Position numbers and translations under genes: made by a program. 64,000 nt of DNA from Siphonodentalium dalli (lineage: Eukaryota > Mollusca > Scaphopoda > Gadilida > Siphonodentaliidae), in the NCBI GenBank assembly GCA_032622095.1, contig CP136063.1:7295814-7359813 (forward strand), in the 5' to 3' direction. Positions 10,265 to 43,079 of the stretch are shown piece by piece. Each line of letters begins with the position of its first letter. Position 1 is the first letter of the stretch. Under the pieces are notes generated by a model. The model saw nothing but the letters and a program-made list of their open reading frames with translations, was not told where the DNA came from and did not search any database.

Positions 10265-13200
10265 GTACACGGTCGTCTGTATTGCTATTGTGTTGTAATC
10301 ACCATTCACACATAATTGTCGAATACACCATTCACGCACGCTCAATCTAATAATAAAGAACCAAAACTTTGGTCCGTATTTATTCAAATCTGACATTGTG
10401 ACGTCAACAACTGTTTTTGTTTACAGATGCGAGCGCCTGTGTAGTGCAGTAGTACTATTGGCTGTAGTATATTGTGAATTCCCTGCTTGTATTTGCTAGT
10501 TGTGTTTGTGAATGTGTTTTTTATTTGCCTTTGTATTTGGTTTATTGTTCGTGTTTTTGTTTTTGTTTTTTTGCGTTTTCGTTTGTGTTTGTTTGTGTTT
10601 GTTTTTTTATTTTGTAATTTGCACACATACGTGTGTGTGGAAAGACACAACATACTACTACGCGATTTGTGCAAAACAAATGAATGAAGCTTCGTGTATG
10701 TTCTGTGATAATGTATATATATTTGTCAAAGCAAACACAATTTCAATCCAGTATAAACAATGATTTAACTATATAATTGTATGATTTAACTATATAATTG
10801 TATGATTTTAGCCCTTTAATTTATTATCGATATCAAACGGATAGGACACAGTATTCTCTAGCACTAGACGTTGTCTGTTTATGTTTCCTGAAGGGTTACT
10901 ACTACCATGATCTTAACATCACATAACACAACCGTATCACATGTAGTATTATGCAACCCATTGCATACTATTGATGCATTGCGCCTTCAATGACGATATT
11001 TACTTGCCAATTATCCACACATAAATATGATTGCGCCAACATGGAATCATCCGTCAGTTACTACGTGAAGGGTTACTATTACCATGATCTTAACATCACG
11101 TAACAAAACCGCATACCAGTACTCCGCAACCCATTGCATAATATCGATGCATTGCGACTTCAATGACGATATTTACTTGCCAATTTATTTCACACACGAA
11201 TACGATTGCGCCAACATGGAATCATCCGTCATTTACTATGTGCTTGCTACAGCGCACACTAAACTATACGCACCATAATTGTTCAGAATGTATTGCATAT
11301 TGATGCATGGACAATGGCACATTTGGGCGGTTTCGTCTACTGGTGCTGATCATCCACATTGCATAATTATAACGAACATGTTACACGTTTACTGTGAAAT
11401 TTCATGTACAACAATGTTTTTATCATTATTCAATTTAATAGTATAACAATAATTGTATCGTTTGAAATTTTAGGGTACGTTGGTATATGACACGGCATGC
11501 GGTTCAACGCAAGGCTGCTTCCACGATTGTTCTGCAGAAAGTTGCAGTTACCTCGTGGCTTGGTCCCAACACAACGACGCCATCAAGTTTCATTTGCGGT
11601 CCGTAGAACCCATTGGACGCTACATCGCTATAGGTTTCTCAAGTGACACAAACATGGTGAGTATCAATATAGCCCACTGTAGGTTACTTCGCTATATGTT
11701 TCTCAGGCGAAACTAACATGGTAGTTACAATGTGCGTTGTGGACGGTTCAGTTTACGCTACATCACTATTGGTTTATCAAGCGAGTAACAATGTTACTAT
11801 ATGTTTGTATGGTGAGTAACAATGTGAGTTGTGGACCTACCTGTGATGGAATTTGTGTTGACGGCCCGTGACTTGCATCAATCGGAAGCGGATGGATTAT
11901 CGATGGTAACAACATGTAGTTCAGTTTGGTATTGCATTAACACAATCATTCCAACACAGTTCAGCATAATTATTTCCCAATTCATCTGCCTTCCTGTTGG
12001 TTTGTGGCGCTACAGCAGTCATTAACTTAGTTAACAATTACCTTAGGTTACATAAATATATCATAAAATAGTTAGCTATGTTAGACTGTTTGCTGACTGA
12101 TATAAATTTATGGTCCGCCCGATATATTCATGGAAGTTCGACCGGTCTGGGCCGCCGCGGTATTAACCGTTCATGTGGTGGTGCGGGCGTTGGTGTAATG
12201 AATTGGTTTAGAAAATGATAGCAGTACAGCACGTACATGTACGTGTATTTCGATGGGATATCCACTATGTTATTTGACAAAGCATATATAATAGTTTAAA
12301 CGCTAAACATGTTTTATTTTGCAGGGATCTGACTCAGTGATGGAATGTTTCGCTGGTGGAACTAATGTCTACAACTCATATAACGAAGGCAGATCCAACA
12401 CAAGGTTGACGGGGGTAAGTTGTCATGGAAACGTCGACGCTGTTTGTGGTCAATGTTCACGCTGGGTCGACAATCCACTGTTTTTGGCCAATTCTGACTG
12501 GTTTGGGCCAAAGTAAAAAAAATACTTTGGCCAAATTGAATTTTTGTTTTCACATGTAATTGATATTTTCGTTTTATTTAACATCTAACATGTTGTATAA
12601 TTATGTCCAAACCTACAAATACCGTGTCTTTTTATGTTTATAGAGATGACTTATATATTGGGATTGAAGAGAGGGGATATAGAAATTGGTTATACCGAGG
12701 TTTATGTATTACACAATTGCATCCGCCCGACGATTTGGACACAGGTAATCACCGCGCCAAGAACATGCCTCGAACAACGTCGCATTTTGTCAATGCTCTT
12801 CGATTCTGACTAACCACGAAAAAGGATGTATGAAACGTTCAGTTACAATGCAGTGTGTGCCTTCGTGTCTGTGCATCCGCATGTGTGTTACACGGTATGT
12901 TTTGGTTGCAACTACTCAGGTTCAGTGTAAGCACAACATATATATACAACTGCATATCATAACAAACACATAAACAAATACATGTATAACAAAAGGCATA
13001 ACCATGTATGTACAAAGGCATGACCGGGTGCGAACCCGGCTTAGTGGTTCGCCGTTGCAACGTTCAGTACCAAATTGAAAACTTCCTTTCGACCAAGAAA
13101 GTTATGAACGTCTCGCCGTCATCCATATAGTGTGATATGTCCTCGTTTCAGGGTGAAGAACAGGCGGGTATATCAGACATAACTACATCGTATGACAACG

Positions 13201-16200
13201 GCGTCCTGGATTGTCAGTTCACTCGACAGAAGACAGTTAATAGCAGTAGTAAAATATTCGATCTCAACAACAAGTGGACACTGATTTATGCTCACGGCGC
13301 AGTGTATTCCGGTAAGTCACGGCGCAGTGTATTCCGGTGAGTCGATGATTTGCGCTCACGGCGCAGTTTATTCCGGTGAGTCGATTATTTACGCTCACGG
13401 CACAGTGTTTTCCGGTGAGTCGATTATTTACGCTCACGGCGCAGTGTCGGTGATTTACATCCACGGCACTGTGTATTCCATGAGTCGACGAGTTACGCTC
13501 GCGGCACAGTGCATTCTGGTGAGTTGATGGGCCCGCCCACGGCACAGTGCATTCCGGTGAATCGATGATTTACGTCCACGGCACTGTGTATTCCATGAGT
13601 CGACGAGTTACGCTCGCGGCACAGTTTATTATTATTATACTTTAATTTCCTCCAATATCATGAAGAGTTACAAACATATATACAGGCTAAACATATATAT
13701 AAAGGTTTTGGATGTATAGATATACACATAACAATATTCTATATACACGTCAAATAACTTATACACGGTATGTGAACGAGGGAAAAATTATAATGTGACA
13801 CAAAGGTATATTTCCAATTAATATGGGCTCTAGTACCAAAGTGCGCATTATGTGACTTGTGCTTAAGTTACAAGTAACTAATAATAATATTGAAAGAAGG
13901 TATTTGTCATTTTGTTAAAATGTTCACAGTATGTATCGACTGGTGTGATGAGCAAACTACTAGCCTGGTTCGATGTGATAAAATTTCCAAATATTCGCAG
14001 TCACTCTGACAAAAAAGATGACAAGATCCCTCCAATCCGAGTCAACTGGAATATCGGATGGGTGATGACCAAGGAAGCAGGCAAGTAGCTCATCCTTTTC
14101 CAGTCCGTCTACATGCAGGGAGGCATCAATCCCAAACTGGTCAAGAAAATCCTGCCATACACAGTTCCGTAATTCAGCAAGGAAGATACAATCAATAAAT
14201 ATGTGCATAATAAGACATTGGTATGGCATGCCACACTTTAAACAAATGCCACTATCGTGATATGCTGTATGTGCGAGCAAGCGAGCTACCAGTAAGAAAG
14301 TGAATTTTTCCTTTGGGTAGTCCCTGCATGTTACCCATAAAGGAGATATGCAAAGCGATGGATGTGCAGTGGCAAATACTGATAATTTCGGGTCAGTAGT
14401 CACAGAAGATATCCAAAAAATCCTTTCAAATTCGGATATTTGAGTCTGCACCAAGTTTTTCCACACATATTTGGAAGGGAATAAGCCAGATATTTCAAAG
14501 TTATATACATGCTCTAAAAGAGAGAATTTAGCTAAGATATGTCAGACATATGTGAGTGTAACTCTTGACGGCCAGAAAGGTGCTCGTATAATCTGAAAAC
14601 GAATATGCGTTTTGCAGCTTTGTCTGATGACAATTTACAGAGCGACCCGAACAGAGATAGCTTTTTCCTCTCGATGATGCTAGCAACGGAGCTAAGACCC
14701 ATAAGACCCTGTGTTATCACCTTTCGCGTCGCTCTGGGTAAACCCTGCATGTTTTTCAGGCACATGCGGTGTACTCTTTCTAATTTCATCATATCGGACT
14801 GTGACAAGCATCGTAACATCTCAGAACCGTACAAGCCACAACTTAATACAATAGACTTATATATTTTCAAGCAACTGAAAGGAGTTATACCACCAGGATA
14901 TATGCCTGCTTTGGTAAGAGAGAAATAACTACGCCGTATTTTATCACAAAGGTGATCTATCATATGTGAACTTTGTTTGTATTTAGCAAGAGGTATTCCA
15001 AGGTGGATTGCAGAATCAACTTCCCTCAATTTTGTAGAGTATTCGCAGAATGACCATGTACGGTTACATTTTTCAAATTCATGTTTTGTTTCATTAAATA
15101 CAAGGATAACAGTTTTTGTAGGGTTATACTTAAATCTCCAAAACTGACTGTACCGGAAACATATACGTATCAAGTTCGATATGCCTTCCTTAGTAAGAGA
15201 GAGGAGCATCATGTCATCTGCTTGAGTTATGGCAGAACAGTTTATACCTTGAATTTGAAGGCCATAGTATTGATTTTTTTAATTCCTGGAGTAGGTGCAT
15301 TCTGGTGAGTTGATGGGCCCGCCCACGGCACAGTGCATTCCGGTGAGTCGATGATTTACGTCCACGGCACTGTGTATTCCATGAGTCGACGAGTTACGCT
15401 CGCGGCACAGTGCATTCTGGTGAGTTGATGGGCCGCCCACGGCACAGTGCATTCCGGTGAGTCGATGATTTACGTCCACGGCACTGTGTATTCCATGAGT
15501 CGACGAGTTACGCTCGCGGCACAGTGCATTCTGGTGAGTTGATGGGCCCGCCCACGGCACAGTGCATTCCGGTGAGTCGATGATTTACGTCCACGGCACT
15601 GTGTATTCCATGAGTCGACGAGTTACGCTCGCGGCACAGTGCATTCTGGTGAGTTGATGGGCCCGCCCACGGCACAGTGCATTCCGGTGAGTCGATGATT
15701 TACGTCCACGGCACTGTGTATTCCATGAGTCGACGAGTTACGCTCGCGGCACAGTGCATTCTGGTGAGTTGATGGGCCGCCCTGGTGAGTTGATGGGCCG
15801 CCAAATGGTCATGTCTGCGGGGGTCATTGTCGATACTCACAATAGGCACTAATTTTCCTTATAGTGTGCCCCCCCCCTGTATAGTGTGCCGATGGACGTG
15901 GTCTATAGCTACACGGGTGTGTCATTTCTTACCTCGGTCTAATCGCAGAATGGTTAGTGCACATGACCGAGTCTACATGATTGAGTGGTTTGTGGTGAGT
16001 GTATTGACATAGCAACGATTCAGCGTACATGCATTTTATTTACGGAGTATGCAGCGCAACATCACGACGACCAAATTTCAGTAACGTCGGGGTGTTGAGT
16101 AAATACATCTGTCCGATAGTACATAATATAGTATAATAGATATAATTTGATGTGTTCCCGAATATGGGATAATCTGCCATTCCCCACTGTTGTATTGCTA

Positions 16201-19200
16201 TGGTTAATTGTATAGTGGTAAGCACTGTGTACTGGAGATATATAAAATACGATGAATACGAGCGTACACACATAATACATACCTTAATTGCTGATGAATG
16301 GTTGCAATCATTGTACAACACAGGTATGAGTAGAACAATAGAATAACCCAGTAACAGTATTGTGATATACGCTATAACATGGATATCATGATACATGTAC
16401 CTCATACCTTATATGGGCACATTATACCACCGATACTAGAACATAACTATCCGCTCTTGAGATAAGAACGGCACTTGACCTGGAACATTCCTCCCAGCAC
16501 ACCTCTCCATAACCTGTATGCATAGTGCTTACCAGAAAAGACTTATACACAAATATAAAAGTTATCAAAATTTCTGGACTCTGTTCCTTTACACGGCCAA
16601 TCTACAATTATCCACTAGTCTAGTTACGGGACACATCAATAGTAAATACATAGTACACTATTACAATATGAAGTATAACAATTGTTGCCGTTCTAATTTC
16701 ACTAAAACAAATTACCCGGACAAATTTGAATCGGGTAGCAGTCATTTATTGTATATGTATCTGAAAGAATCAATACTATAGACGAACGTAATCGATCGAG
16801 AGATATAACCTTGAAGTAATGGAGCGTTCCAATAATATTAACTAGTGGGTTGAGCTCACCGTTCACCATTCTTCATCATTATCAACAATAGCATCGTTAG
16901 CCGCCTCTGCCTCTGCCCAACTGGTTTGCCATCTGCGTTTGCCATTTAGGCACTTGCTTCTGTGTCGTAATGCATGTATATATACAATTTTAATTGTCCG
17001 TCCACACTGGTGGTATACATATGCTTTGCCAAAGTAATTTATTTAAGCCAATGTTTGTTGAGGTTTGCTTTGGACCTTCCCACAATATTCACATGTGTAA
17101 CGTTTATTTGGAGACGAAGCGTCTGCATACAGATTTAGTTTAACAGCTCTTGGCCTTATGATACGTATGCTATAATAAACATACGGATTTATTTGTAAAG
17201 ATTAAGTGCCAAGACAAAATGAAAAACGGTGGTGTGAATAATGCATGCATTTCAGTGCGTTAATATAACGTTAAGTGCATTATTATTTTACAACAAAAAA
17301 GTTATTTGAAAATAGGCGAGGATATCAAAATCAGGGTTAACAGAAACTTAGTAATGCAGAAAGCGACCGGCGTAGTCACTGACTATAATAATGTCCCTGA
17401 CTAGAAGAATGTCCCTGAAGAATGTCCCTGACTAGAAGAATGTCCCCGAAGAATGTCCCTGAAGAATGTCGCTGCAGAATGTCCATGAAGAATGTCCCTG
17501 AAGAATGTCCCTGAAGAATGTCCCTGACTAGAAGAATGTCCCTGACTAGAAGAATGTCCCTGACTAGAAGGACTAGAAGAATGTCCCTGACTAGAAGAAT
17601 GTCCCTGAAAATAATGATTTATTTGACAGCTGTGGAAAACTATATCAACCCTTTACCCAACAGAAGGGCCCTGTGCCAATGCATTCTCTTATATATGCGA
17701 GTCGACCATAGGTCGCCTCGCATATATAAGATAATGCATTGGCTTAACACATTAAAAATTATAAAATTGTTAAAGAATGTAAGAAAAAATGGTAAAAAGT
17801 GTTAAAAAAAGTTTTGTTTAGGCCAATGCATTCTCTTATATATGCGAGGAGACCTATGGTCGACTCGCATATATAAGAGAATGCATTGGCACAGGGCATA
17901 ACTGTAACTATCACAATGTGGTCAAGGAGCCGGTTCCAATGATATCCATATTTGTATGGTTCTATTGAGACAGACCGAAGATATTTTAGGCTGTTGAAGC
18001 TTTATTTGGCCGGTTTTGGCCGTTTTGTTGGGTAAAGGGTTAACCCATGGTCTGCACATATCTTTGGTATGCGATATTTAAGTTTATAATGATCGCTTCT
18101 ACCACAGTGACGGGCACAATATCACAATGTAGCACCTCTACATCTGACCTAGTATTTCCAATCCCCAAAGTTCAGTTTTATTGGTATACTGACACACTGC
18201 ATACGTCTCTGTTAAATCAGTAGTTAAATCACATCCTTCATAATTTACAGGGTACATATCACAGCATGACGAGATGCCGATCACTTCTGATGGAACCATA
18301 GACTTCCTATCGACGCAAGATGTCTCGGGTAGTCCGGATACTCTTGGTCCGAAGCTGGTCAAAGCGCATGGTGGGTACCAGGGCCAGGACATTACGTCAC
18401 TCCCGTAATCTCGTAATCGGGTAGCTGCTATATGAAATGCATGTAGTGGACGAGCTAGATATGTGTTACAAGATGTATTACACTTATGAGTGAAATCGAT
18501 TATGTAAATTTTACGAACCTTTATTGAATAGTTGATGTGTGTTCGATGTTCAAACAGTGCTGCAAAATCGATATATCTTTTTCTTTGTAAATTTCAGTAC
18601 TAACTATTTCAGTGATTACGGATTTGTTAACGTGCATTGTGAATGTCAACAGTTACGGTACTATCCCGTCGGAGAAGCTTTTATATATGTCGTCAACACG
18701 TTTAAAATAACACTGTTACAATTAATAACTTCACTTAATATGGCACTTTATATCAATGAGCGCGACGCTGCTAGGAACGTGCATTATCGCGGTCGGTGGA
18801 CACACAACTGTGCACGAATCATACAGTTTGTTAAAATGTGCGGACGTTTAATGTCGAGTCGCGTGATGATGGTTTGTTCCCACCAGCTGTCACGCGACCC
18901 ACGTGAACACATTATCTCCGCCAACCAATCGCGTCCTTCTAATGACCAATTACTCTTGGTCGGCGTCTCCTCGACATGGTACAATTATTATCACAACAGC
19001 ATGGCCGGAATTCAACTGTCACAAGTATGACAAACATCCACCTCATATACAAATACACCTATTTGGCCGCGATTAAGACTAATGTGCTGATGACCATGAA
19101 CAATTGATAGTGATTTAAGTTGACAATACCTGAATTGATTGCGTCAATAATGTAATGGTCTTAGTATATTCCGTTTCATGCTAACCGTTATTTCTGATTA

Positions 19201-25200: not shown

Positions 25201-28200
25201 TAATTGTATAACTGTTTTCAGAATGCCTGATGGTATTCGCGTGGATGGGGCGGCCCGTGTAACACTGTGCCTTACATTTGATTAACTTTGTTGATGATGC
25301 CTGATGGTATTCGCGTTGATGATCGTTTACCCGTGTGACTTTGTGCCTTATAATTTTGTCTAACTTTTTTTCAGGATGCCTGATGGTATTCGCATGGATG
25401 GGGGCGGCAACCATTGGCATTGTCTGTGCTACCTGGTTCAAGATGGTCTGGCCGGATACTAAGGTCGCTGGCTTACACGTCTGGTTTCAGGTTAGTCCAG
25501 CGTAACTAATTCAGTATCGAATGATACTAAGGTCGCAGGCTTAAACGGACATATTTCAGTAGGGAATGCTATTGGTCGCTGACAAAGTGCTCGACCACTG
25601 TGTAACATCGGTGGATGCGTTCATGCAAGTCGTTTATTAAATTTAAGTTATGATCATTTCGAATAAATGTTGCTTTTTGTTTCTATTGTTTTACTGCCAG
25701 TGAACATATAAGAGTTAAGTCTTATAAGCGGTAGTGAAATGTAACAGCTTCTTAATTAGATCAGACACTTATCATTGATATGTGGCCAAAATATGATTGC
25801 CACCGTCCGCCTACCATGTAGCGTGGCGGCATAAATGATTTAGACACAAGACTATGATGTTTAGACAAATAACAACATATTTTTACTACTGTTGGTACCA
25901 TGTTTGGTGTGACATGGCCATCAGTTGGAATTCGTCATACCTTCACTGGGGAGGGGATTCAGGTTGGAAATGTCAAGCATTTGAGGTATCAACCCGATGG
26001 GGTGCAAGTGGACTTTCGCGAACATTGATTTTGGTCTGTTTCAAGGCGACCGGAAGGGGTACAGTTGGAAATTTGAATATGGACACTCAGAACCGGGACC
26101 ACCTAGCCAATATACTGCCCCCTTCGTCACATCATATCGCTATAATGCTGTACATTTGCTTAAAGTGATGTGAAACACTCCGGTAGGGTGATCCAATAGA
26201 AATGGAGAGTAATCTTAAAGTGATGTGAACCACTCCGGTATGGTTATCCAATAGAAATGGAGAATAAAACTTAAAGTGACGTGAAACACTCCGGTAGGGT
26301 GATCCAATAGAAATGGAGAATAATCTTAAAGTGATGTGAAACACTCCGGTGGGGTGATCCAATAGAAATGGAGAATAATATTGCTCAAAGTTGTTCTTTT
26401 TACGAATATTAATCCAAATTACCAACACACACCGTCATTCTGATATATTAATTAAATTCTCTGACTCTGGATGGCGATATTTGTGTTTGTTTGTCACCGA
26501 TTGTTGCGTCCCGAATCCAGATGTAAATATTTACAATTGAGCATAGTTCAGACGATGTTTTCTATCGAGTGGTATTGTCGATTTCTTTTTAATTTTCGAC
26601 TATGTTAGTAGAATGCTACATTCTCCAGGTTGGCATAACGCCTGAATACTAACTTATCAGTTTCAAGGACTCGAACAAGTTCATAATTTGTCTTTAAATC
26701 CATGCATTTGAGATTTGCATCTTGGTTCTTATTTCGTGCATTGTTTGAATGTGTGTTCATTCTTCGCGCGAGCGTCATTTGTGCCCAAAATGTTGATCAA
26801 AATCAGAACTGGGAACCTTATACTGAGTATTTCAAGAATAATTCATATTCCCGTTGGTGCATGCATTGTATACATGTACCACTGAAATACAAACTTCAAA
26901 AATAAAAAAAATGTCGAAGTCAATATGCTATTCTCGAGTTAGTATTCTTCATTAATATGCGATATTTTACGTCTTGAATGACAGTACTAATATAAAAAAA
27001 GGTCTGGGAAGTGGCCATTACAATGATTACGTTGTACTAATAAAATACTGTTATTGTTGTTTTTAGATTCACAGAGGTGCCATGGTGTTCGTGTTTCTTG
27101 CTACGATCTCAGCCTTCATTATCATCTTCACGAAGAATGATTGGGAGCTCATCGATGTGAGTCTAAGTTGATGGTTCACGACAAATTGAAGATGGTCTCT
27201 CTCGTCAACTACTTTTATATTAATTTCGGGGTATAAAATAATAGATATGAATCCATGACACATGTCCGGAAGCCCTTTTATCAAGTTATATCAATCTTGT
27301 CGCTATCGCACCACGATATTTTAAACAAAATTATGCGAGAAAACGTTCAGAGCTCCAAGATTGATAACTCCTTCTTGTTAGCTCAACCAAGGCAATTTTT
27401 TTATTTCATAGCAAATTACGATATAAATCAATCACTTCATTATGACTTCTGTAAACAACTAAAATATCAAATCTAACAAAATAAACATGATGTTGATGTT
27501 ATTGCGGCCAGGAAGATGTACACCATTCTGACAGTGGTGTTGCGGTGATGGCGGTCACGTTACAGCATCATATCAATTGGACATGCGTGTTTTATATCAC
27601 TAACGTTTTTAAGCATATTTTAATTTATCATAAAGATAATATACATCGGGGTTTTGGGCACAAGTTACTAAACGTACAACATGGCGAAATTTGATACCAT
27701 ACATGGGTTTGTTCAAAACGTTTTGATTTAGATATGAAAGATTGAATAATACGAATTAAGGTAGTTAGATTTTGGTTTGCTATATAATTCTTAGAATGGA
27801 TTTCATAAATATGTACACATTGCTTACCTCAGTTGTGTTCATAATCGTAGGTGTTAAGTTATTTAACATGTTTTCAGTGTGAATGTTGAGCGGCGAAACA
27901 TGTCTGCATCGTGCATGCAGACATGTTTTTTTTTATGTGTGCGTACTGATACAAACTTATCAAGCAACAAACTCATATTTCTTTCGCTCGTTGTGAATAG
28001 AAATACATGATATACAAGCCATTATCAATAACATGATTGGATTGGTTCACACCATCAATGAACATAACATTTCTTGTATGGTTTGCTTGTAATGGATTAA
28101 AGCCATTCATACTTAAATTTCGAATAAAGTAAATCCTATGATCTCTAAATAAAGGACATACATGACAATAGTGATTTTTGGTATAAAGGACATACATGAC

Positions 28201-31200
28201 AATAGTGATTATGGTATAAAGGACATACATGACCATAGAGATTATGGTATTCAATGGCTTAGCTGCAGGGACATATAGGCGAATCGGATATGTGATTATC
28301 AAACATATCCTAACGGAGATCACTGCAAGGATTCTGCATTTTACAGTATATTTTACTAATTTTCCTTTTTCCGATATAAAAACAAGATGGGTTTGTTATT
28401 GGGTTTATTATCTCAAAAATGATATGCGTTAACCATAACTACTTGCTGTTATGGTGATAGCCGACCCAGCAACCAATTATTCCAGTCATTGCAGTTAGTT
28501 TGTTATTGCAGTTAACTTGTTAATACAGTTAATGGCGGACATTCATTATTTTTTTCTTCCAGAAATTACTAATAAAATTACACTACTGCATGTCAGTGAC
28601 GTATATGTGTATATACTAGTCATGACATCATCTGACGTGTATACTAGTCATTGCATCATCTGACGTGTATACCAGTCATGGCATCATCTGACGTGTATAC
28701 TAGTCATGACATCATCTGACGTGTATACTAGTCATGACATCATCTTACGTGTATACTAGTCATGGCGTCATCTTACGTGTATACTAGTCATGGCATCATC
28801 TTACGTGTATACTAGTCATGACATCATTTTACGTGTATAATAGTCATGGCATCATCTGACGTGTATACTAGTCATGGCATCATCTGACGTATATACTCGT
28901 CATGGCACCATATGACGTATATAATAGTCATGACGGCGCCTGACGTGTATACTAGCCATGACATCATCTGACGCGTATAATAGTCATGACAGCATAATTA
29001 TGACGAGCATAATAGTCATGACAACATCTGACGTGTATAATAGTCATGACAGCATCTGACGCGTATACTAGTCATGACAGTATCTGACGCGTATACTAGT
29101 CATGACAGTATTTGTACGATTATCTTAGTCATGACATCATATAACGAGTATAATAGTCATGAAAGCATCTGACGCGTATACTAGTAATGACAGCATCTGA
29201 CGTTTATAATAGGCATGACAGCATATCACGTGTATAATATTCATGACAGCATATGACGAGTATAATAGTCATGACATCAGCTGACGTGTATAACAGTCAT
29301 GACAGCATCTGACGTGTATAATAGTTATGACAACATCTGACGTGTATAACATTTATGACAGCATCTGACGTGTATAATATTAATGACATCATCTGACGAG
29401 TATAATAGTCATGACATCATCTGACGTGTATACTAGTCATTATAGCATATGACGTGTATAACAGTCATGCCATCATCTGACGTGTATAATAGTTATGACC
29501 GCATCTGACGTGTATAATAGTAATGACAACATCTGACGTGTATAATAGTAATGACAACATCTAACGTGTATAATAGTAATGACAACATCTGACGTGTATA
29601 ATAGTAATGACAACATCTGACGTGTATAATAGTAATGACAGCATCTGACGTGTATAATAGTCATGACATTATCTGACACTAGTGTTATCCACATCGTGTC
29701 CTCATCGTCGGCGGAAACGTGTAGTGTCATTGACAATGAATTACACATATTGTATGTATACATACTGGATTTATCTAAGATTCAGTGTTATTGAAATCGA
29801 ACGACACACAATGCATGCATACATGTACTATATATTAACTATTAATTCCAGATGACGTCAGGATCTATCATCAAAGCTTACCATCCTATATTCGGCATCC
29901 TCGCCACATGCCTGTGTGTTATTAATGTGAGTATATTTCGAATAACCGCCACATCCATGTGTAGTATAAATGCGAATATATTTCGAATGACCGCCACATG
30001 CATGTGTCGTATAATTTTGAGGATATTTCGAATGACCACCACATGCCTGTGTAGTATAAATGCGAATATATTTCGAATGACCGCCATGTGCATGTGTAGT
30101 ATAAATGTGAGTATATTTCGAATGGCCACCACATGCCTATGTAGTATAAATTCGAATATATTTCGAATGACCGCATTATGCATGTGTAGAATAAATTTGA
30201 ATATATTTCGAATGACCGCCATATGCATGTGTAGTATAAATGTGAGTATATTTGGAATGGCCACCACATGCCTATGTAGTATAAATTCGAATATATTTCG
30301 AATGACCGCCATATGCCTGTGTAGTATAGATTTGAATATATTTCGATTGAGAACCACATGCCTGAATAGTATAAATGCGAAAATATTTCGAATGACCGCC
30401 ATATGCATGTGTAGTATAAATTTGAATTTCGAATGACCGTCATAATTATGCATGTGTAGTATAAATTTTAATATAGTTCGAATGACCGCCACATGCATAT
30501 GTAGTATGTATGTTTATTATAAAGCTGAGTTTATGTGTTAAGTAACGTTGATGCGCCAAGATTTGAAGTTTGGAGATGGAGTGGAGCAAGCATGATATGT
30601 TCGAAATAGTTGTGTTTTTATATATTATTTTTGTATGAATATTTCATGAAGGATGTTATTACACAATGATTGATCCAGCTGCTATGGTCGTAACTCAAGA
30701 CCACATTTGGGAGCTGATTCATTGTGTTATGCATTTAATGCTCGGGGGTTGGTGCGAGCTTGTTGTTAGTGAACCGATGGTCAGCGCATGTGTGGACCAA
30801 TACTTATATACATGTTAATAGTATACATATATACATATATATGGTCCCTGCATCATTAAGTGGTACTGTGGAGATAGCTGATGTATACATGTCGGATTGT
30901 TGGATCTGAACGCCTGTCAGCTGCACCAATTATCTCTGAAATTTATGAGATAGAAACGCGTACAAACTTGAATGGTGTGTCATGGTCATGGGGTGTTATG
31001 CCTATAATTTTTGAAAGACAAGGAACGTTGAGAACATGTTTGAACAATAAACATAGTCTAAAGACAAATATTTCAATGGGTACGCGGGAGATCACTTGGG
31101 TATCACATCGTTAGAGCTTGTCCATGATTAATTATAGTACCTGTCGTTTACAGCCATTTGTGTCGTTGCTGCGGTGCGGTCCGAAAGATCCGAGGCGGTG

Positions 31201-34200
31201 GATATTTAATTTGTCACATTGGTTTGTTGGGCTAGCTGCACATGGATTCGCCAGTGAGTATAACAGTAAAATATCCGAGGCGGTGGATATTTAATTTGTC
31301 ACATTGGTTTGTTGGGCTAGCTGCACATTTATTCGCCAGTGAGTATAGTGGATATTTAATTTGTCACATTGGTTTGTTGGGCTAGCTGCACATGGATTCG
31401 CCAGTGAGTATAGTGGATATTTAACTTGTCACATTGGTTTGTTGGGCTAGCTGCACATGGATTCGCCAGTGAGTATAGTGGATATTTAACTTGTCACATT
31501 GGTTTGTTGGGCTAGCTGCACATGGATTCGCCAGTGAGTATAGTGGATATTTAACTTGTCACATTGGTGTGTTGGGCTAGCTGCACATGGATTCGCCAGT
31601 GAGTATAATAGTAAAATATCCGAGGCGGTGGATATTTAATTTGTCACATTGGTTTGTTGGGCTAGCTGCACATGGATTCGCCAGTGAGTATAACAGTAAA
31701 ATATCCGAGGCGGTGGATATTTAATTTGTCACATTGGTTTGTTGGGCTAGCTGCACATTTATTCGCCAGTGAGTATAGTGGATATTTAATTTGTCACATT
31801 GGTTTGTTGGGCTAGCTGCACATGGATTCGCCAGTGAGTATAGTGGATATTTAACTTGTCACATTGGTTTGTTGGGCTAGTTGCACATGGATTCGCCAGT
31901 GAGTATAGTGGATATTTAACTTGTCACATTGGTTTGTTGGGCTAGCTGCACATGGATTCGCCAGTGAGTATAGTGGGTATTTAACTTGTCACATTGGTTT
32001 GTTGGGCTAGCTGCACATGGATTCGCCAGTGAGTATAGTGGATATTTAACTTGTCACATTGGTTTGTTGGGCTAGCTGCACATGGATTCGCCAGTGAGTA
32101 TAACAGTATAATATCCGAGGCGGTGGATATTTAATTTGTCACATTGGTTTGTTGGGCTAGCTGCACATGGATTCGCCAGTGAGTAGAGTGGATATTTAAC
32201 TTGTCACATTGGTTTATTGGGCTAGCTGCACATGAATTCGCCAGTGAGTATAACATGAGGCGGTGGATATTTAACTTGTCACATTGGTTTGTTGGGCTAG
32301 CTGCACATGGATTCGCCAGTGAGTATAACATGGTGCTTAACCCTTTACCCAACAGAACGGCCCTGTGCCAATGCATTCTCTTATATATGCGAGTCGACCA
32401 TAGGTCGCCTCGCATATATAAGAGAATGCATTGGCTTAACACATTAAAAATTATAAAATTGTTAAAGAATGTAAGACAAAATGGTAAAAAGTGTTAAAAA
32501 AAGATTTTTGTTAGGCCAATGCATTCTCTTATATATGCGAGGCGACCTATGGTCGACTCGCATATATAAGAGAATGCATTGGCACAGGGCATAACTGTAA
32601 CTATCACAATGTGGTCAAGGAGCCGGTTCCAACGATATCCATATTTATATGGTTCTATTGAGACAGACCGAAGATATTTTAGGCTGTTGAAGCTTTATTT
32701 GGCCGGTTTTGGCCGTTTTGTTGGGTAAAGGGTTAACAGTTCATGGTGACATTTGAAAGTACAACCCAACGTGTGCACGAGACACATTCTTGGTTGGGGG
32801 CGTCTTAATACATTTGATCTAACCACCGGCGCAGGCTATGCTATTGTTGTTTTAAAATATTATTGTTTGCAGTTACCGTGGTTACCGTCGAAACCAGGGA
32901 ATAACTCACCCCTCGGAAATTCAGAAGTAGTTTAATATTTCGTAATAATAAATAATGTTTCAAAATGTCGTGCTTCACGCAAATCCAGTTAAAATTTACA
33001 TCTGGGTTGTCTATGCTTTACAAACACTGCATGTAATATTTCCGTGCGTGCATGTGTCGATTATTTTGTCCTTAGTGACACATTTTCGTATGTCATATGC
33101 ATGTCTTTAATGTGTGTGTACGGGGTGGTTATACTAATAAATAATATCACGTGACCAGACTAGTTGATGTGTTTAATTGCAGTAACGGCCATGTTTGGCG
33201 GAGTACAGCTCGGGCCGCTGGACATTCCCAGTTCCTCTGCGGACGTCATGGTGGTATTCACCGTATGGTATGCATTCATAATGCTGCTGTTACAAATAAT
33301 ACTCCTACAGCGCAATAACATAGGTGAGTATAATCTTCATCACTTAAGGGTAGTATTCACCGTATGGTATGCATTCATAATGCTGCTCTTACAAATAATA
33401 CTCCTACAGCGCAATAACATAGGTGAGTATAATCTTCATCACTTAAGGGTAGTATTCACCGTATGGTATGCATTCATAATGCGGCTCTTACAAATAATAC
33501 TCCTACAGCGCAATAACATAGGTGAGTATAATCGTCATCACTTAAGGGTAGCTCACTCATCTGGTAATTGAGGCGGCAATTAGCCTTAGAGGCCACAGTG
33601 CTCGAGTGTTTAACAAAATACTCATACTATGTGATGTGAGATTTAGTCAATCCCTTAATATTTTGATCTCAATCAGCATTCAAATATATGGCAATAATAA
33701 ATCGTGTAATCACTTGTTCCGTTTCTTGCTCTGATACGAGACACATGGGCGTTTTCGTTGAAAGGATACGACGTCTCTGAAACTATACCAGCAAGCAAAA
33801 TGCCGAAAGCGAAACATAATTTGTAAAATCCATAATAAAAATTGAGTGCATTGCCGTGGCTCAACAACAACTGGGCCATTTTAGTCGGTTAACATCAATT
33901 TCAATCTAAATCCCGACGCAGGTTATGATAATATCAAACAATCACGTGATATCGGCATTGGATATATATACATGCACAGTAACAACATACACAAGTAGTA
34001 CGTGTATGCGTTGCTTGAATACCTGGCCGTGAGTATAATACCCAAGCTCAGTACATATCGCCGATGAAGTGAAACTATTCTAATTTCAGTCAGACATCAG
34101 CCATCGTATTCACCAAAATTAGTTTATAATATAGTCCGGGTGGTTTCACCAGCCATCGACACAAAATGTCATTTGCATAACCTATACCCGAAAAACTTTA

Positions 34201-35900
34201 TTATAATGTAGTTGAACTGCGTTCGGGGAATCTGCTGAACTGCACCATATGAAGTACTGAACGGGATTGTGTACTGCTGAACTGGGGTGGATGTCCATCA
34301 AATTGTGTTACCTCCCTGTATTTGGTTATGGTCCATCGATACATTGCACAACATATAGTACACGAACATTGCAGCTATATTTTGTTTGCATAATATTGAT
34401 TTTAACATACAACACTGTGTTCGTTGTAAAACAATCAATCACGTACCTAAAAACTAAGTTGACATGTTGTATTACTCGAGGTTATTTTCTGTTGTCATGT
34501 TTTTAAATAAATTATGTATTTGCACATGTAACTACCTTCCGCGAGTGCACAGTGTTCCTTTAATCTTGATGCACGAACACATTAATTATAGAAATACAAA
34601 CCTGATGCAATAGCAGGTCATGTTCGCATACCAATACAACTCTGGTGTCATTTTCGCATGCTTGTTGTTTTTTATGCAACTTGTGTATTATTAACCCTTT
34701 CATAGCGGGAGCTGCGTTGGTGCAGCATTAAATACCATGTGCCATTGCAGTAGCTTATATATCGCATACAATGACGCCAATGCATTTTCTTATATATACG
34801 AGGCTCCCTATATAAGGCATATATAAGAAAATGCATGGCATATGGTTTTCGCCAATGCAGGATTCTCCAGTTTTGGGAAGGATATTAATTAATGATACAA
34901 ATAAACTGTTCGTGTTTGTTCATGTCTCTTTCAATACTATCTTAATTAGATCATGGTGTTACATTAATCTATATTTTAGGCAGCAGTTCTTCGGTTGATA
35001 TCAGTGGTAAAGATACATCAGAGAGTTTGAACTCTACGGTACGTATACGTGTTCATGACGGTGGTTAGATTTAAGATTAGGAGTATGGTATATGGTTGGG
35101 AAACTTATGGTTAGGGTTGGGGATATGACTTGTACTAGGTTTATGGTCAGGAATACCAGGGCTATTGTTAGAGTTCTAATACTTAAGCTTAGGGTCAGGG
35201 TCCGATATGTGTATGTCCACCATCTATGTATGTAGACTGTAACGTTTTGTAATGTTTCTATTTGTAGATATATCTATTCGAGCTTGAAGGTTGTTAATGT
35301 ATTTGAGCTCTCGCATGTTGTTCAAAAAAAAAAACCACGAGCTTCTCCTGAACGAGGTTGGTCAATAACTCGTCTGCATGTTCAGATGATCATGACGAGA
35401 ATGTTCGTAATTCATGTGTTAGTCGTCATAACACATGTGTTTCTTTTTTCAGGTTCGGATGATCATGACGAGATTATTCGTAGTGTATTCGTTCGTCGTT
35501 ATAACTCCTTTGTATATTATCAGGTTCGGTTGTTCATGACTGGATTATTCGTAGTTTATGCGTTCGTCGTTATAACTGCTTTGTATATTATCAGGTTCGG
35601 TTGTTCATGACTGGATTATTCGTAGTTCATGCGTTCGTCGTTATAACTCCTTTGTATATTATCAGGTTCGGTTGATCATGACGGGATTATTCGTAGTTTA
35701 TGCGATCGTCGTTATAAATCGATTTTTATATTTTAGGTTCGGATGATCATGACTGGATTATTCGTAGTTCATGTGATCGTAGTTATAAATCGATTTTTAT
35801 ATTTTAGGTTCGGATGATCATGACTGGATTATTCGTAGTTCATGTAATCGTCGTTGTTGCACTATCGATTACACTCGTCGCCATTATTGGCAAATCATGA
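9909..35900 (+). CDS. FRRS1-like DOMON / cytochrome b561 transmembrane reductase gene (12 exons seen, 5' end missing)
   Basis: This is the envelope of the gene; exons are listed separately. Coding lengths are 356, 183, 90, 160, 120, 116, 90, 75, 100, 141, 59 and 93 nt. Every junction phase matches, giving 526 codons and a stop. Order: threonine/proline-rich stalk, DOMON domain (exons 2-5), b561 core (exons 5-10), short serine-rich linker, final hydrophobic segment. Histidines expected as heme ligands are seen in 'KAHG', 'FQIHRG', 'YHPIFG' and 'LSHWFVG'. Proteins of this layout are membrane electron-transfer enzymes, and FRRS1 is described as a ferric-chelate reductase. Ferric iron as substrate here is inference. 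No reeler domain or signal peptide was found in the window, so the 5' end is probably to the left. Introns are loaded with minisatellites, many copied from the gene's own splice junctions. Confidence 0.9.
10384..10860. other. Intron sequence, T-rich low complexity
   Basis: Contains a G/T-rich low-complexity stretch near 10500-10620 ('gtttgtgtttgtttgtg') and a small duplication of 'atgatttaactatataattg' near 10760-10805. The open frames here come from composition. No exon is seen. Confidence 0.5.
10889..11243. repeat. Direct tandem duplication, ~177-bp period, two copies
   Basis: 'tgaagggttactactaccat' near 10890 is repeated as 'tgaagggttactattaccat' near 11067. The copies stay alignable through 'gcgccaacatggaatcatcc' at about 11033 and 11210. 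It lies in the intron before exon 2. Confidence 0.85.
11474..11656 (+). CDS. Exon 2: first part of DOMON domain
   Basis: Acceptor 'gaaattttag' and donor 'ATGgtgagt'; 61 codons, phase 0 at both ends. It starts 'GTLVYDTACGSTQGCFHDC' and ends 'GRYIAIGFSSDTNM'. The cysteine-rich start and the 'YIAIGFSSD' strand fit DOMON domains, which bind heme or sugar and sit N-terminal to the b561 core in FRRS1-like proteins. The exon tail and donor have weak, degenerate copies downstream (11683-11835), for example 'cgctatatgtttctcagg'. Confidence 0.88.
11657..11840. repeat. Degenerate copies of exon 2 tail plus 5' splice site
   Basis: Exon 2 ends '...cgctataggtttctcaagtg...aacatggtgagt'. Downstream are 'cgctatatgtttctcaggcg...aacatggtagtt' (11690-11725), 'tcactattggtttatcaagcg' (near 11764) and 'gtatggtgagtaac' (near 11809). 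About two to three decayed copies are visible. This is a weaker version of the pattern seen at exons 4, 8, 9 and 10. Confidence 0.65.
11841..12324. other. Intron sequence between exons 2 and 3
   Basis: No internal exon or mobile element was recognised. It ends in the good acceptor 'gttttattttgcag' at 12311-12324. Confidence 0.4.
12325..12414 (+). CDS. Exon 3: middle of DOMON domain
   Basis: Acceptor 'gttttattttgcag', donor 'ggtaagt'; 30 codons, phase 0 at both ends. Encodes 'GSDSVMECFAGG' followed by 'NVYNSYNEGRSNTRLTG'. 'GSDSVMEC' corresponds to the typical DOMON '(M)GxDxVxxC' strand that follows the 'GFS' strand of exon 2. No repeat flanks this exon. Confidence 0.88.
12600..13151. other. 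Intron sequence between exons 3 and 4
   Basis: No exon beyond those listed. A 'gaccgggtgcgaacccggc' palindrome at about 13021-13040 looks like an isolated T-arm but lacks the rest of a tRNA. Confidence 0.4.
13152..13311 (+). CDS. Exon 4: distal part of DOMON domain
   Basis: Acceptor 'cctcgtttcag', donor 'TCCGgtaagt'; 53 codons plus one base (phase 0 in, 1 out). It starts 'GEEQAGISDITTSYDNG' and includes 'GVLDCQFTRQ' and 'WTLIYAHGAVYSG'. This matches the DOMON order of 'DG.L.C.FTR' then a 'W.L.YA.G' strand. The 3' end and donor are the seed of the 39-bp array that follows. Confidence 0.9.
13273..13623. repeat. Exon 4 tail + 5' splice site minisatellite, left half
   Basis: Units of about 39 bp (the first step is 25 bp) repeat the exon end and donor: 'ggcgcagtgtattccggtga' then 'gtcgatgatttacg'. 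Many copies keep a consensus-like donor, 'ccggtgagtc'. Reading past the true donor shifts frame and stops near 13340. The array is split by the LINE at 13624-15291 and continues at 15292. Confidence 0.92.
13624..15291 (-). mobile_element. 5'-truncated LINE inserted inside the exon 4 minisatellite
   Basis: On the minus strand, 15212-14532 encodes the C-terminal part of a reverse transcriptase. The catalytic 'ADD' is read just upstream at about 15216-15224. 'YNPTKTVILVFNE', 'HLGIPLAKYKQ' and 'CGLYGSEML' follow. 14466-13960 continues with a Cys/His knuckle, 'CLKCGMPYQCLIMHIFIDC'. The 3' end on the minus strand is a short (ATA)n tail at 13625-13640, typical of several LINE clades. The 5' junction lies near 15291, just after the RT palm, so more than half of the element is missing. 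Repeat units flank both sides, so the element landed within the array. At least one frame break lies between 14532 and 14466. Confidence 0.88.
15292..15802. repeat. Exon 4 tail minisatellite, right half, with ~111-bp higher-order unit
   Basis: Continues the array interrupted by the LINE. Three slightly different 37-39-bp subunits alternate: '...cattctggtgagttgatgg', '...cattccggtgagtcgatga' and '...tattccatgagtcgacgag'. Together they form a higher-order unit of about 110 bp repeated four times. The first two subunits keep 'ggtgagt'; the third has 'catgagt', which loses the GT donor. Confidence 0.92.
15803..17380. other. Intron sequence between exons 4 and 5
   Basis: AT-rich, with no exon recognised that would fit the phase 1 gap. 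No clear mobile element was seen. Confidence 0.4.
17385..17612. repeat. Short minisatellite 'gaatgtccctgactagaa'
   Basis: Alternating 12-bp ('gaatgtccctga') and 18-bp ('gaatgtccctgactagaa') units, about fifteen in total, lie just left of a TTAA MITE. No relation to an exon is seen. Confidence 0.9.
17649..18039 (+). mobile_element. TTAA MITE with paired hairpins, copy 1
   Basis: Starts 'CCCTTTACCCAACA' and ends 'TGTTGGGTAAAGGG', a perfect 14-bp terminal inverted repeat. The right flank is ttaa and the left is tcaa (one change). TTAA targets and CCC-starting ends are typical of piggyBac-type transposition. Inside are two 69-bp hairpins (17683-17751 and 17823-17891) that are near-perfect inverted copies of each other. 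No ORF, so non-autonomous. Confidence 0.9.
18251..18370 (+). CDS. Exon 5: DOMON end and entry to the b561 core
   Basis: Acceptor 'taatttacag', donor 'CATGgtgggt'. It holds 2 nt, 39 codons and 1 nt (phase 1 in, 1 out). Encodes 'YISQHDEMPITSDGTIDF', then 'DTLGPKLVKAHG', with the Gly codon completed by exon 6. 'KAHG' carries the first conserved b561 histidine just before transmembrane helix 1. The minus-strand open frame across this exon is a shadow. No tandem array flanks this exon. Confidence 0.88.
18400..19300. other. Intron 5, first part
   Basis: A 163-codon open stretch at 18539-19030 exists but has no recognisable domain. It has no suitable phase relation to exons 5 and 6, which already join perfectly. 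It is not called as a gene. Confidence 0.4.
19312..19995. repeat. 61-bp minisatellite, about 11 copies
   Basis: The unit contains 'cacgagaaccccgtcgtgtg', 'taaggactgtggacaaccgg' and 'cgcagccaaatataaaccgc'. Period is 61 bp and copies are very similar, which implies recent expansion. Each unit contains 'gtgtaagga', a donor-like string, but no exon of this gene matches. Confidence 0.95.
20190..20490. repeat. Degenerate 'agtcaacatgacta' short repeat
   Basis: Loose repetition of a 15-20-bp motif such as 'agtcaacatgactaac' and 'gagtcatattgactaat'. The same motif returns at about 23710-23825, so it may belong to one dispersed repeat. Confidence 0.75.
20560..22690. repeat. Complex repeat cluster with 'ttgcgataaatcgcaaa' palindromic motifs
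   Basis: Many short phrases in both orientations, such as 'tttgcgataaatcacaaa' and 'gcgatttatcgcaaa', lie between copies of a longer block near 20740-20840, 21985-22070 and 22340-22440. The block includes 'aggctaaaatagaccaatcg'. An inverted copy at 22642-22680 opposes the one at 20767-20805, so the cluster may be a mobile element with inverted ends plus internal duplications. No coding capacity. Confidence 0.65.
21066..21188. repeat. Long inverted repeat (hairpin), ~55-bp arms
   Basis: 'gtgtttcgctcatatgatat' on the left pairs with 'atatcatatgagagaaacac' on the right. The inner arms 'attttcagttttctcg' and 'cgagagaaaactgaaaat' meet around 21120-21130 with almost no loop. A few mismatches are present. 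Part of the repeat cluster at 20560-22690. Confidence 0.85.
22690..23830. other. Intron 5, later part
   Basis: AT-rich with no exon seen. Ends with a partial copy of the 'gtcatgatgact' short-motif repeat (about 23710-23825). Confidence 0.4.
23836..24165. repeat. ~45-bp minisatellite, about 7 copies
   Basis: The unit contains 'acatgttggggacgcgactt' and 'ttggttggggcagacccata'. The minus-strand open frames are repeat artefacts. Some units keep 'ccagacatg', an acceptor-like AG, but no exon match was found. Confidence 0.9.
24185..25374. repeat. Exon 6 3' splice site + exon head minisatellite, 16 decoy copies
   Basis: Units of about 70-77 bp repeat an acceptor and the start of exon 6: 'ctgttttcag', then 'aatgcctgatggtattcgcg', then 'tggatggggcggcccgtg'. 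Sixteen copies precede the real exon. About eight keep 'ttttcag' directly before the exon-like part; the others read 'ttgttgatgatgcc' and have lost the AG. In the exon 6 frame each copy encodes 'CLMVFAWMGRPV' or similar and then a stop, so use of a decoy would truncate the protein. Two subfamilies alternate in blocks. Confidence 0.93.
25375..25490 (+). CDS. Exon 6: b561 transmembrane helix 1
   Basis: Acceptor 'taactttttttcag', donor 'TTTCAGgttagt'. It holds 2 nt and 38 codons (phase 1 in, 0 out). Encodes 'CLMVFAWMGAATIGIVCATW', then 'FKMVWPDTKVAGLHVWFQ'. Joined to exon 5 it reads 'KAHG-CLMVFAWM', the usual b561 entry to TM1, and it ends in the 'H.WFQ' that precedes TM2. Of all the copies in the array this is the only one with the complete helix. 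A degraded duplicate of its tail, 'gatactaaggtcgcaggctt', lies at about 25523. Confidence 0.93.
25491..25600. repeat. Degenerate duplicate of exon 6 tail
   Basis: Exon 6 has 'gatactaaggtcgctggctt'. The intron repeats 'gatactaaggtcgcaggctt' near 25523 and 'gctattggtcgctgac' near 25568. There are one to two decayed copies, and the donor is not preserved. Confidence 0.65.
25601..26155. other. Intron 6, first part
   Basis: 25909-26120 contains phrases related to the dispersed repeat at 6230-7090 ('ggccatcagttgga', 'aggttggaaatgtcaa'). No exon. Confidence 0.5.
26160..26700. repeat. Dispersed element with 4-copy internal ~56-bp tandem repeat, copy A
   Basis: 26160-26385 has four units with 'aaagtgatgtgaaacactcc' and 'gatccaatagaaatggagaa'. 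The following DNA to about 26700 matches 58318-58690, sharing 'gttcagacgat', 'tagaatgctacattc' and 'tgaatactaac'. At 58 kb only one tandem unit is present. So a dispersed repeat is present whose end expanded here. Confidence 0.8.
26701..27066. other. Intron 6, last part
   Basis: No exon or named repeat. Ends in the acceptor 'gttgtttttag'. Confidence 0.4.
27067..27156 (+). CDS. Exon 7: b561 transmembrane helix 2
   Basis: Acceptor 'gttgtttttag', donor 'GATgtgagt'; 30 codons, phase 0 at both ends. Encodes 'IHRGAMVFVFLATISAFI', then 'IIFTKNDWELID'. With exon 6 it forms 'WFQIHRG', carrying the second conserved histidine and Arg at the head of TM2. No tandem array on either side. Confidence 0.93.
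27157..28597. other. Intron 7, first part
   Basis: No exon. A short perfect stem, 'aacatgtctgcat' with 'atgcagacatgtt', lies at 27897-27928. A 'ggacatacatgacaatagtg' repeat of about three units lies near 28152-28240. Confidence 0.5.
28598..29690. repeat. 28-bp minisatellite, about 38 copies
   Basis: Unit 'gtatactagtcatgacatca' plus 'tctgacgt'. Early units favour 'actagtcatgacatcatctg' and later ones 'aatagtaatgacaacatctg', so variants are spatially blocked. The array ends about 160 bp before exon 8. Exon 8 begins 'ATGACGTCAGGATC', which only faintly resembles the unit, so a link is not claimed. Confidence 0.95.
29852..29926 (+). CDS. Exon 8: b561 transmembrane helix 3
   Basis: Acceptor 'attaattccag', donor 'ATTAATgtgagt'; 25 codons, phase 0 at both ends. 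Encodes 'MTSGSIIKAYHPIFGI', then 'LATCLCVIN'. 'YHPIFGI' carries the third conserved b561 histidine, and 'HP.FG.' at the start of TM3 is characteristic. Its last 23 bases and donor seed the downstream 45-bp array. Confidence 0.93.
29927..30510. repeat. Exon 8 tail + 5' splice site minisatellite, 45-bp unit, ~13 copies
   Basis: The exon end 'ccacatgcctgtgtgttatt' followed by 'aatgtgagtatatttcgaat' is repeated as 'ccacatgcctgtgtagtata' followed by 'aatgcgaatatatttcgaat'. The period is 45 bp and divisible by three, so long frames stay open on both strands (194 codons plus, 206 minus). Two of the early copies keep 'aatgtgagtat'; most have mutated the donor GT. Confidence 0.93.
30520..31153. other. 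Intron 8
   Basis: No exon or named repeat. Ends in the acceptor 'ctgtcgtttacag'. Confidence 0.4.
31154..31253 (+). CDS. Exon 9: b561 loop and transmembrane helix 4
   Basis: Acceptor 'ctgtcgtttacag', donor 'GCCAgtgagta'; 33 codons plus one base (phase 0 in, 1 out). Encodes 'PFVSLLRCGPKDPRRWIFN', then 'LSHWFVGLAAHGFA'. 'DPRR.IFN..HW.VG' is a typical b561/DOMON signature with the fourth conserved histidine (SHW). A second His (AAHG) follows in the helix. The exon's last ~66 bases with the donor seed the array downstream. Confidence 0.94.
31254..32336. repeat. Exon 9 tail + 5' splice site minisatellite, 15 further copies
   Basis: Units of about 67-68 bp, plus longer ones of 76-88 bp that include 'aaaatatccgaggcggtgg', repeat the exon end 'gctagctgcacatggattcg' followed by 'ccagtgagta'. 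All fifteen copies keep an intact 'ccagtgagta' donor; two read 'catttattcg' and one 'catgaattcg' just before it. Reading through the first donor reaches TAA after 13 codons, so later donors would truncate the protein. The two long blocks 31254-31620 and 31690-32100 look like copies of one higher-order unit. Confidence 0.95.
32341..32732 (+). mobile_element. TTAA MITE with paired hairpins, copy 2
   Basis: Flanked by ttaa on both sides (32337-32340 and 32733-32736). Ends 'CCCTTTACCCAACA' and 'TGTTGGGTAAAGGG'. Same orientation as copy 1 and nearly identical to it. Inserted right at the end of the exon 9 array, in intron 9. Confidence 0.95.
32737..33182. other. Intron 9, last part
   Basis: No exon or named repeat. 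Ends in the acceptor 'gtgtttaattgcag'. Confidence 0.4.
33183..33323 (+). CDS. Exon 10: b561 transmembrane helix 5
   Basis: Acceptor 'gtgtttaattgcag', donor 'CATAGgtgagta'. It holds 2 nt, 46 codons and 1 nt (phase 1 in, 1 out). Encodes (I)'TAMFGGVQLGPLDIPSSS', then 'VVFTVWYAFIMLLLQIILL' and 'QRNNI'. The start completes TM4 and the second part is TM5 with a basic end, as in the family. The last ~70 bases plus donor and 23 intron bases are the seed of a 93-bp repeat. Confidence 0.92.
33324..33550. repeat. Exon 10 tail + 5' splice site repeat, 93-bp unit, two extra copies
   Basis: 'gtattcaccgtatggtatgc' to 'aataacataggtgagtataa' recurs at an exact 93-bp period, with only a few changes (for example ctgctg, ctgctc, cggctc). 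93 is a multiple of three and the intron part is open in the exon 10 frame. Using the second or third donor would therefore add 31 or 62 residues, each including another copy of the TM5 segment, and keep phase. Confidence 0.94.
33551..34690. other. Intron 10, first part
   Basis: No exon or named repeat recognised. Locally AT-rich. Confidence 0.4.
34694..34862. mobile_element. Diverged foldback fragment related to the TTAA MITEs
   Basis: Starts 'ttaaccctttcatagcggga' and contains a hairpin 'gccaatgcattttcttatat' with 'atataagaaaatgcatggc'. The end 'gggagctgcg...' has an inverted partner at 56550-56586 ('cgcagctcccgtcg...aaagggtta'), so it is a second, older family with the same general layout. 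Confidence 0.6.
34980..35038 (+). CDS. Exon 11: serine-rich cytoplasmic linker
   Basis: Acceptor 'atctatattttag', donor 'ACGgtacgt'. It holds 2 nt and 19 codons (phase 1 in, 0 out). Encodes (G)'SSSSVDISGKDTSESLNST', a polar linker between TM5 and the final hydrophobic segment. No domain. Phase fit to exons 10 and 12 supports it. Confidence 0.82.
35380..35807. repeat. Exon 12 3' splice site + exon head repeat, exact 71-bp period
   Basis: Acceptor AGs lie at 35452, 35523, 35594, 35665, 35736 and 35807, exactly 71 bp apart. Each is followed by 'gttcgg', then 'atgatcatgac' or 'ttgttcatgac', then 'ttattcgtagt'. One more diverged copy starts near 35380. From each AG the exon 12 frame encodes a hydrophobic stretch such as 'VRLFMTGLFVVHAFVVITP', then a stop just inside the next unit. 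Early copies use 'tatattatcag' and late ones 'tatattttag'. Confidence 0.94.
35808..35900 (+). CDS. Exon 12: last exon, C-terminal transmembrane segment and stop
   Basis: Acceptor 'tttttatattttag'; 30 codons plus TGA (phase 0 in). Encodes 'VRMIMTGLFVVHVIVVVALS' followed by 'ITLVAIIGKS', a good sixth hydrophobic helix. It is the last of six consecutive 71-bp acceptor units and the only one whose reading continues past the unit into a longer helix. I chose it as the main form for that reason; upstream acceptors remain possible. No obvious AATAAA lies directly downstream, though 'caaataaaag' occurs near 36567. Confidence 0.85.
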   Translation, partial: VRMIMTGLFVVHVIVVVALSITLVAIIGKS

Positions 35901-42825: not shown

Positions 42826-42879
42826 TTAACATCCCCATGTTGTTTTATCAAATACCGTGAGTGACGCATCGGCGGTATA

Positions 42880-43040
42880 AAAACGTCTTCATCATCATTA
42901 TCATCGTCATCATCATCATCATCATCACTACCATCATCACGCAATGATCATCGTCATCGCCATCCCCTTTATCATCGTCGTGATCGTCCCCATGTTGTTT
43001 TATCAAATACCGAGAGTGACGCCTCGGCGGTATAAACACG

Positions 43041-43079
<39 letters not shown>

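Follow-up and report, generated by a model that had tools for sequence, protein, structure and literature searches.

In a 64,000-nucleotide stretch of the genome of the scaphopod Siphonodentalium dalli (contig CP136063.1, positions 7,295,814 to 7,359,813; hereafter the window, numbered from its first letter), a predicted FRRS1-like gene, of the DOMON-domain kind found in animals, carries six minisatellite arrays, each of which consists of copies of one of the gene's own exon edges together with its splice site. Four of these arrays repeat the tail of an exon and the donor (5') splice site that follows it (exons 4, 8, 9 and 10), and two repeat an acceptor (3') splice site and the exon head (exons 6 and 12), with unit lengths of 39-99 bp. 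An earlier note on this DNA had recognised the same six arrays and had assigned the exon sides in the same way, and both claims are borne out by Tandem Repeats Finder, by an ungapped scan and by local alignment. Minisatellites that span exon-intron boundaries have already been published under the name of mirages, on which that note was silent. We assign a probability of about 0.75 to the reading that the arrays are mirages generated by repeated tandem duplications straddling exon-intron junctions, which were tolerated and left the exon-proximal splice site in use.

Tandem Repeats Finder returned 104 rows for the window. In the ungapped scan of the boundaries of exons 2-12, six edges were found to be repeated and the remainder occurred once, with the exception of a single 0.71 match to the exon 2 donor. 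When each of the 23 boundaries of exons 1-12 was aligned locally with the adjacent 500 bp, eight (the donors of exons 2, 4, 6, 8, 9 and 10 and the acceptors of exons 6 and 12) scored above all 300 first-order shuffles. The other 15 did not, including both sides of exons 3, 5, 7 and 11, precisely the exons said previously to have no copies, and the lowest p-value among these 15 was 0.04, for the exon 4 acceptor. In these boundary scans, as in the chance and frame tests described below, exon 12 was taken two bases short of its stop. Decayed versions had also been suspected at exon 2 and at the exon 6 donor, and both are now confirmed. The copy of the exon 2 tail and donor lies at 11685..11731 on the plus strand, at an offset of about 64, and scores 49 against a shuffle maximum of 27 (n=300), with its ungapped match of 0.71 at 11720. 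The copy of the exon 6 tail (25523..25547, plus strand, offset about 68) scores 40 against a maximum of 25 (n=300), and is a 25 bp match that comprises exonic sequence only. Each of the six arrays and two remnants matches its own exon edge and is located on the intron side of it, and the involvement of six different exon edges upholds the view that the arrays originated separately. We also tried 21 other repeat units, a subset of the Tandem Repeats Finder rows, as hidden mirages: only the 51-bp unit of candidate exon 1 fell within the top 1% for donor-like score, the next-best unit being at 6% of background. This unit forms an in-frame tandem duplication at 9960-10065 with CAG/GTAGGT at 9994 and 10045, both of which share the phase of the exon end at 10264, and it is possibly a further junction-seeded duplication.

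The six arrays, all of which are read on the plus strand, differ considerably in their architecture. Periods of 39, 45 and 71 bp given previously for the exon 4, 8 and 12 arrays stand, whereas the period at exon 6 is 74 bp instead of about 72, that at exon 10 is 99 bp instead of 93, and the exon 9 units are 65 and 85 bp instead of about 68. The exon 4 array (exon tail plus donor) is in two parts, the left at 13292..13630, where the first unit is 25 bp, and the right at 15295..15802, which has a 115-bp higher-order unit with 99% matches. Between them lies a 1.66 kb insert (13631..15294, minus strand) with long minus-strand open frames and no Pfam match, which, judged by eye, is probably a retroposon fragment. 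Since like higher-order units, as read in the sequence, flank the insert, the array would appear to be the older of the two. The exon 6 array (24158..25409; Tandem Repeats Finder span 24229-25408) repeats the acceptor and exon head, the authentic copy being preceded by 16 others. According to splice-site scores computed here and below from hand-entered frequency tables, its outermost copies, at 24201 and 25374, are strong acceptors (11.3 and 11.6), and those between them are either weak (4.2) or without AG. The exon 8 array (29902..30507) repeats the exon tail and donor, with a reading frame that is open to 30436. In the exon 9 array (31184..32327), again exon tail plus donor, the two unit lengths are organised in a 430-bp higher-order repeat; one copy of a short inverted-repeat element, described below, lies directly downstream of it. 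The exon 10 array (33250..33551; exon tail plus donor) comprises only three copies in an open frame, each unit encoding, by eye, a hydrophobic segment. Finally, the exon 12 array (35380..35855) repeats the acceptor and exon head.

Across all arrays, GT or AG is kept in 45 of the 68 non-authentic copies that were recovered. Retention is complete among the further copies of the exon 9 (15/15) and exon 10 (2/2) donors, and high at exon 12 (AG in 5/6, the sixth copy being partial) and exon 4 (GT in 12/16, the greedy search having overlooked some copies of this array). It falls to 8/16 for AG at exon 6 and to 3/13 for GT at exon 8, where the full GTGAGT is found in two. The copies therefore present a gradient of decay, from the three near-identical copies of exon 10, through retention of about 80% at exons 6, 8 and 12 (78-81% of authentic bases), to the remnants at exon 2 and the exon 6 donor. 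Selection for extra splice sites, which the earlier note had offered as one explanation, finds no sign in the exon 8 and exon 6 arrays, in which the junction dinucleotide is retained no better than the other bases of the unit (0.50 versus 0.79 in 12 further copies of exon 8; 0.73 versus 0.78 in 15 further copies of exon 6). The dinucleotide is fully retained at exon 9 (15 further copies) and exon 12 (5), and an absence of selection does not account for the full retention at exon 12. The alternative offered, that extra splice sites are tolerated, fits: many copies have GT or AG, use of those at exons 4, 6 and 9 would truncate the product, and normal splicing is reported to be unaffected in the lancelet cases discussed below.

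We infer the following history and mode of splicing. At different times, short units of 39-99 bp that straddled an exon-intron junction would have been duplicated in tandem. Splice function would have been retained by the copy joined to the rest of the exon, and the duplications were most likely tolerated because this exon-proximal copy still splices. The other copies, now within the intron, would be nearly neutral, and may have been multiplied by unequal exchange or slippage, homogenised and then decayed. Of the available sites, the one closest to the exon is most likely the one spliced. The consequences of using the other sites were assessed by inserting copied sites into the transcript by script, where the absence of a stop means that the frame is open. 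An early stop resulted at 7/7 positions tested at exon 4 (one of which, 13480, is not a GT site), at 8/8 copied sites at exon 6 and at 15/15 at exon 9, and regular use of these copies would therefore break the protein. Some observations weigh against the proposed reading, one group of which concerns the choice of splice site. Every copy at exons 9 and 10 scores equal to the authentic donor, and four of the five intact copies at exon 12 have stronger acceptors (8.1-9.9) than the last copy (5.8), so that the sequence does not by itself show the exon-proximal site to be used exclusively. Exon 12 could in fact begin at its most upstream copy; if an upstream copy were spliced, the copies downstream of it would become 3' untranslated region.

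A rival reading is that the arrays are alternative splice sites in use, which would provide protein variants with a longer exon 8 or exon 10 or with alternative exon 12 C-termini. The two full GTGAGT sites of exon 8 are both open and in frame (+180 and +315 nt), as are both copied sites of exon 10 (+99 and +198 nt), where the unit encodes a hydrophobic segment, and the five exon 12 acceptor copies, which score 5.8-9.9, would each give a hydrophobic C-terminus of 26-28 residues with its own stop, compared with 30 residues for the last copy. Nevertheless, we consider this unlikely: copies at exons 4, 6 and 9 yield only truncations, 10 of the 13 further exon 8 copies have lost GT, the period is divisible by three in three of the six main arrays (39, 45 and 99) versus two expected, and lancelet mirages are said, in the passages of the two reports drawn upon, to leave regular splicing undisturbed (PMC3087553; PMC3902484). 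Less probable still is that the assembler expanded or misjoined repeats. Arrays with 97-99% matches (exons 9 and 10 and the right part of exon 4) are difficult to assemble, and one globin mirage was misassembled in a lancelet draft according to the relevant passage of PMC3087553. Against such an artefact, copies at exons 6, 8 and 12 are as divergent from the authentic bases as noted above, an insert splits the exon 4 array, and six different exons are involved.

The remaining counter-observations concern chance. The gene may simply be rich in minisatellites, with copies falling beside boundaries without any preference for junctions, an account that is compatible with the explanation proposed above and that we regard as rather doubtful, while giving it more weight than either of the preceding alternatives. 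The earlier note had held that a single chance event does not explain six arrays; that their number exceeds chance is only partly supported, since the outcome depends on the null chosen. Under a seed-level null, in which one unit is placed at random in the gene, 6/12 arrays straddle a boundary versus 0.41 expected (P ~1e-5; arrays scoring at least 150, 20 boundaries). Over six settings, which varied the score cut-off and the counting of the split exon 4 array, 3-6 were observed versus 0.18-0.48 expected (P <=0.00032); the underlying list of 21 arrays was hand-merged from Tandem Repeats Finder rows and omitted the right part of the exon 4 array in 5/6 settings. Random placement of whole arrays in the same six settings gave expectations of 1.9-3.4, and P values of 0.03-0.28. 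A matched alignment test, with a score threshold of 38 chosen after the shuffle maxima were known, yielded a similar divergence. Spanning copies confined to the intron side were found at 7/23 boundaries. One-sided copies occur at 6.8% (donor-like) and 7.8% (acceptor-like) of intronic positions (n=921), giving P 0.00095 at 7.3%, whereas 27.7% and 28.8% of the same positions have any adjoining spanning copy, by which measure of array coverage 7/23 is unremarkable (P 0.49). The corresponding shares in the 3' flank were 7.5-7.8% and 10.1-10.5% (n=1153 positions). We judge the seed-level null, with P values from ~1e-5 to 0.001, to be the appropriate one, on the grounds that duplication reproduces the junction itself and inevitably leaves the functional edge as the terminal copy. 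All these P values are uncorrected for the choice of the gene after inspection, are based on positions that are not independent and come from one gene. The suggestion that boundaries are favoured starting points for duplication is thus encouraged by the seed-level tests and is not shown by them, in one gene picked after inspection and with no excess in coverage; it stands as a reasonable hypothesis rather than a result. We consider it improbable that junctions are preferred seeds in this genome and that the arrays also feed protein variation, through the open-frame alternatives of exons 8, 10 and 12, in which hydrophobic segments would be added or the C-terminal one exchanged.

The mirage of the lancelet Adh3 gene is reportedly, as later papers have it, due to Canestro and colleagues in 2002. 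Mirages have been described in the Adh3, globin, TnC and PGBD5 genes of lancelets (passages of PMC3087553 and PMC3902484), the globin cases being BflGb6 and BflGb9 (PMC3087553), alongside which two further loci are cited; the passages of PMC3902484 report the PGBD5 repeats and cite troponin C. Length instability, germline or somatic, is a further trait of the kind. According to the same passages, they occur at both 5' and 3' boundaries, with units of 10-160 bp and copies that keep AG or GT (PMC3087553; PMC3902484), and have been proposed as a source of new introns (PMC3087553). The arrays described here are similar in that their units include a junction between exon and intron of the gene in which they lie, donor and acceptor edges are both involved, the units lie inside the published size range, and many, not all, of the copies retain AG or GT. 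They differ in that a single gene harbours six arrays, of up to 16 copies, as well as two remnants. By its layout, the gene belongs to the mirage kind and is a dense example of it. No report of mirages outside lancelets was found in the literature searched, with subscription papers outside its scope. A related process is the gain of introns when exonic segments bearing AGGT are duplicated in tandem in the genome, as outlined in parts of a review (PMC3443670), where splice-like signals are likewise multiplied by tandem duplication. Whereas an exonic duplication becomes a new intron, with AGGT at both ends, in that model, the units here combine exon with existing intron, the copies extend from a single boundary into the intron and we see no new intron, so we rejected intron gain as a description of the arrays. 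Introns of amphioxus VCBP3 contain sequences that resemble the exons next to them, in some cases complete with canonical splice sites; unlike the arrays here, these are described in the passages concerned as complete or partial exons, with data not displayed, and are not termed tandem minisatellites there (PMC2632668). The earthworm metallothionein gene has intronic minisatellites, and the passages of PMC12783039 that describe them are silent on the copying of exon edges. Mirages bear on the choice that a spliceosome makes when many equal splice sites are on offer, and on whether new introns or exon extensions arise from tandem duplication at junctions. Six arrays at differing stages of decay constitute a natural series for both questions, and a concrete case for testing whether junctions seed such duplications.

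Exons 2-12 of the host gene (11474-35900, plus strand) were placed by splice signals and frame, and are predicted to give a single open frame of 408 residues with consistent phases. They lie at 11474..11656 (exon 2), 12325..12414 (exon 3), 13152..13311 (exon 4), 18251..18370 (exon 5), 25375..25490 (exon 6), 27067..27156 (exon 7), 29852..29926 (exon 8), 31154..31253 (exon 9), 33183..33323 (exon 10), 34980..35038 (exon 11) and 35808..35900 (exon 12, last copy, encoding a hydrophobic C-terminal segment and the stop). The predicted product has a DOMON domain (PF03351) at residues 23-140 (E 5.2e-19), in keeping with a gene that is FRRS1-like, and the remainder is hydrophobic. The spacing of its histidines resembles, by eye, the pattern of FRRS1/b561 proteins. 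As regards the cytochrome b561 helices with their four histidines, a Pfam search at E 10 gave no match, and no credible relative was found in the PDB. The most 5' exon placed is the threonine-rich candidate exon 1 (9909..10264, plus strand), which has a phase 0 end and is in phase with exon 2; the 5' end of the gene was not found.

Elsewhere in the window, reverse-transcriptase-like frames with a YADD motif by eye are located upstream of the gene at 7624-9044, without a Pfam match, and an open frame on the minus strand at 41131-41586, also without one, resembles by eye the first helices of rhodopsin-type receptors. A 152-bp duplication at 42832-43140 contains TCA repeats that read as polyhistidine and underlies weak matches to ZIP and DUF3290, both below the Pfam cut-off, which overlap the TCA repeats at ~42.9-43.3 kb. 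Pfam searches of six frames at ~36-51 kb and of three plus-strand frames at 5.3-11.5 kb gave nothing above cut-off, and neither RNA families at the gathering score nor tRNAs were found. Near the left edge of the window, a GC-rich array of 98-bp units, containing CGTGTGAGT, occupies positions 1-5308, at least 5.3 kb. This array may represent a mirage derived from an exon further upstream; its donor score is unexceptional, being equalled or bettered by 16% of background. The inverted-repeat element mentioned above, which carries CCAATGCATTCTCTTATATATGCGAG, is present at 32 places in the 64 kb at up to three mismatches, with 0 expected, and 24 of its bases had no exact match in viral and prokaryote collections. 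Examples are found at 17676-17889, 32368-32582, 40187-40401, 44507-44721 and 54543-54754.
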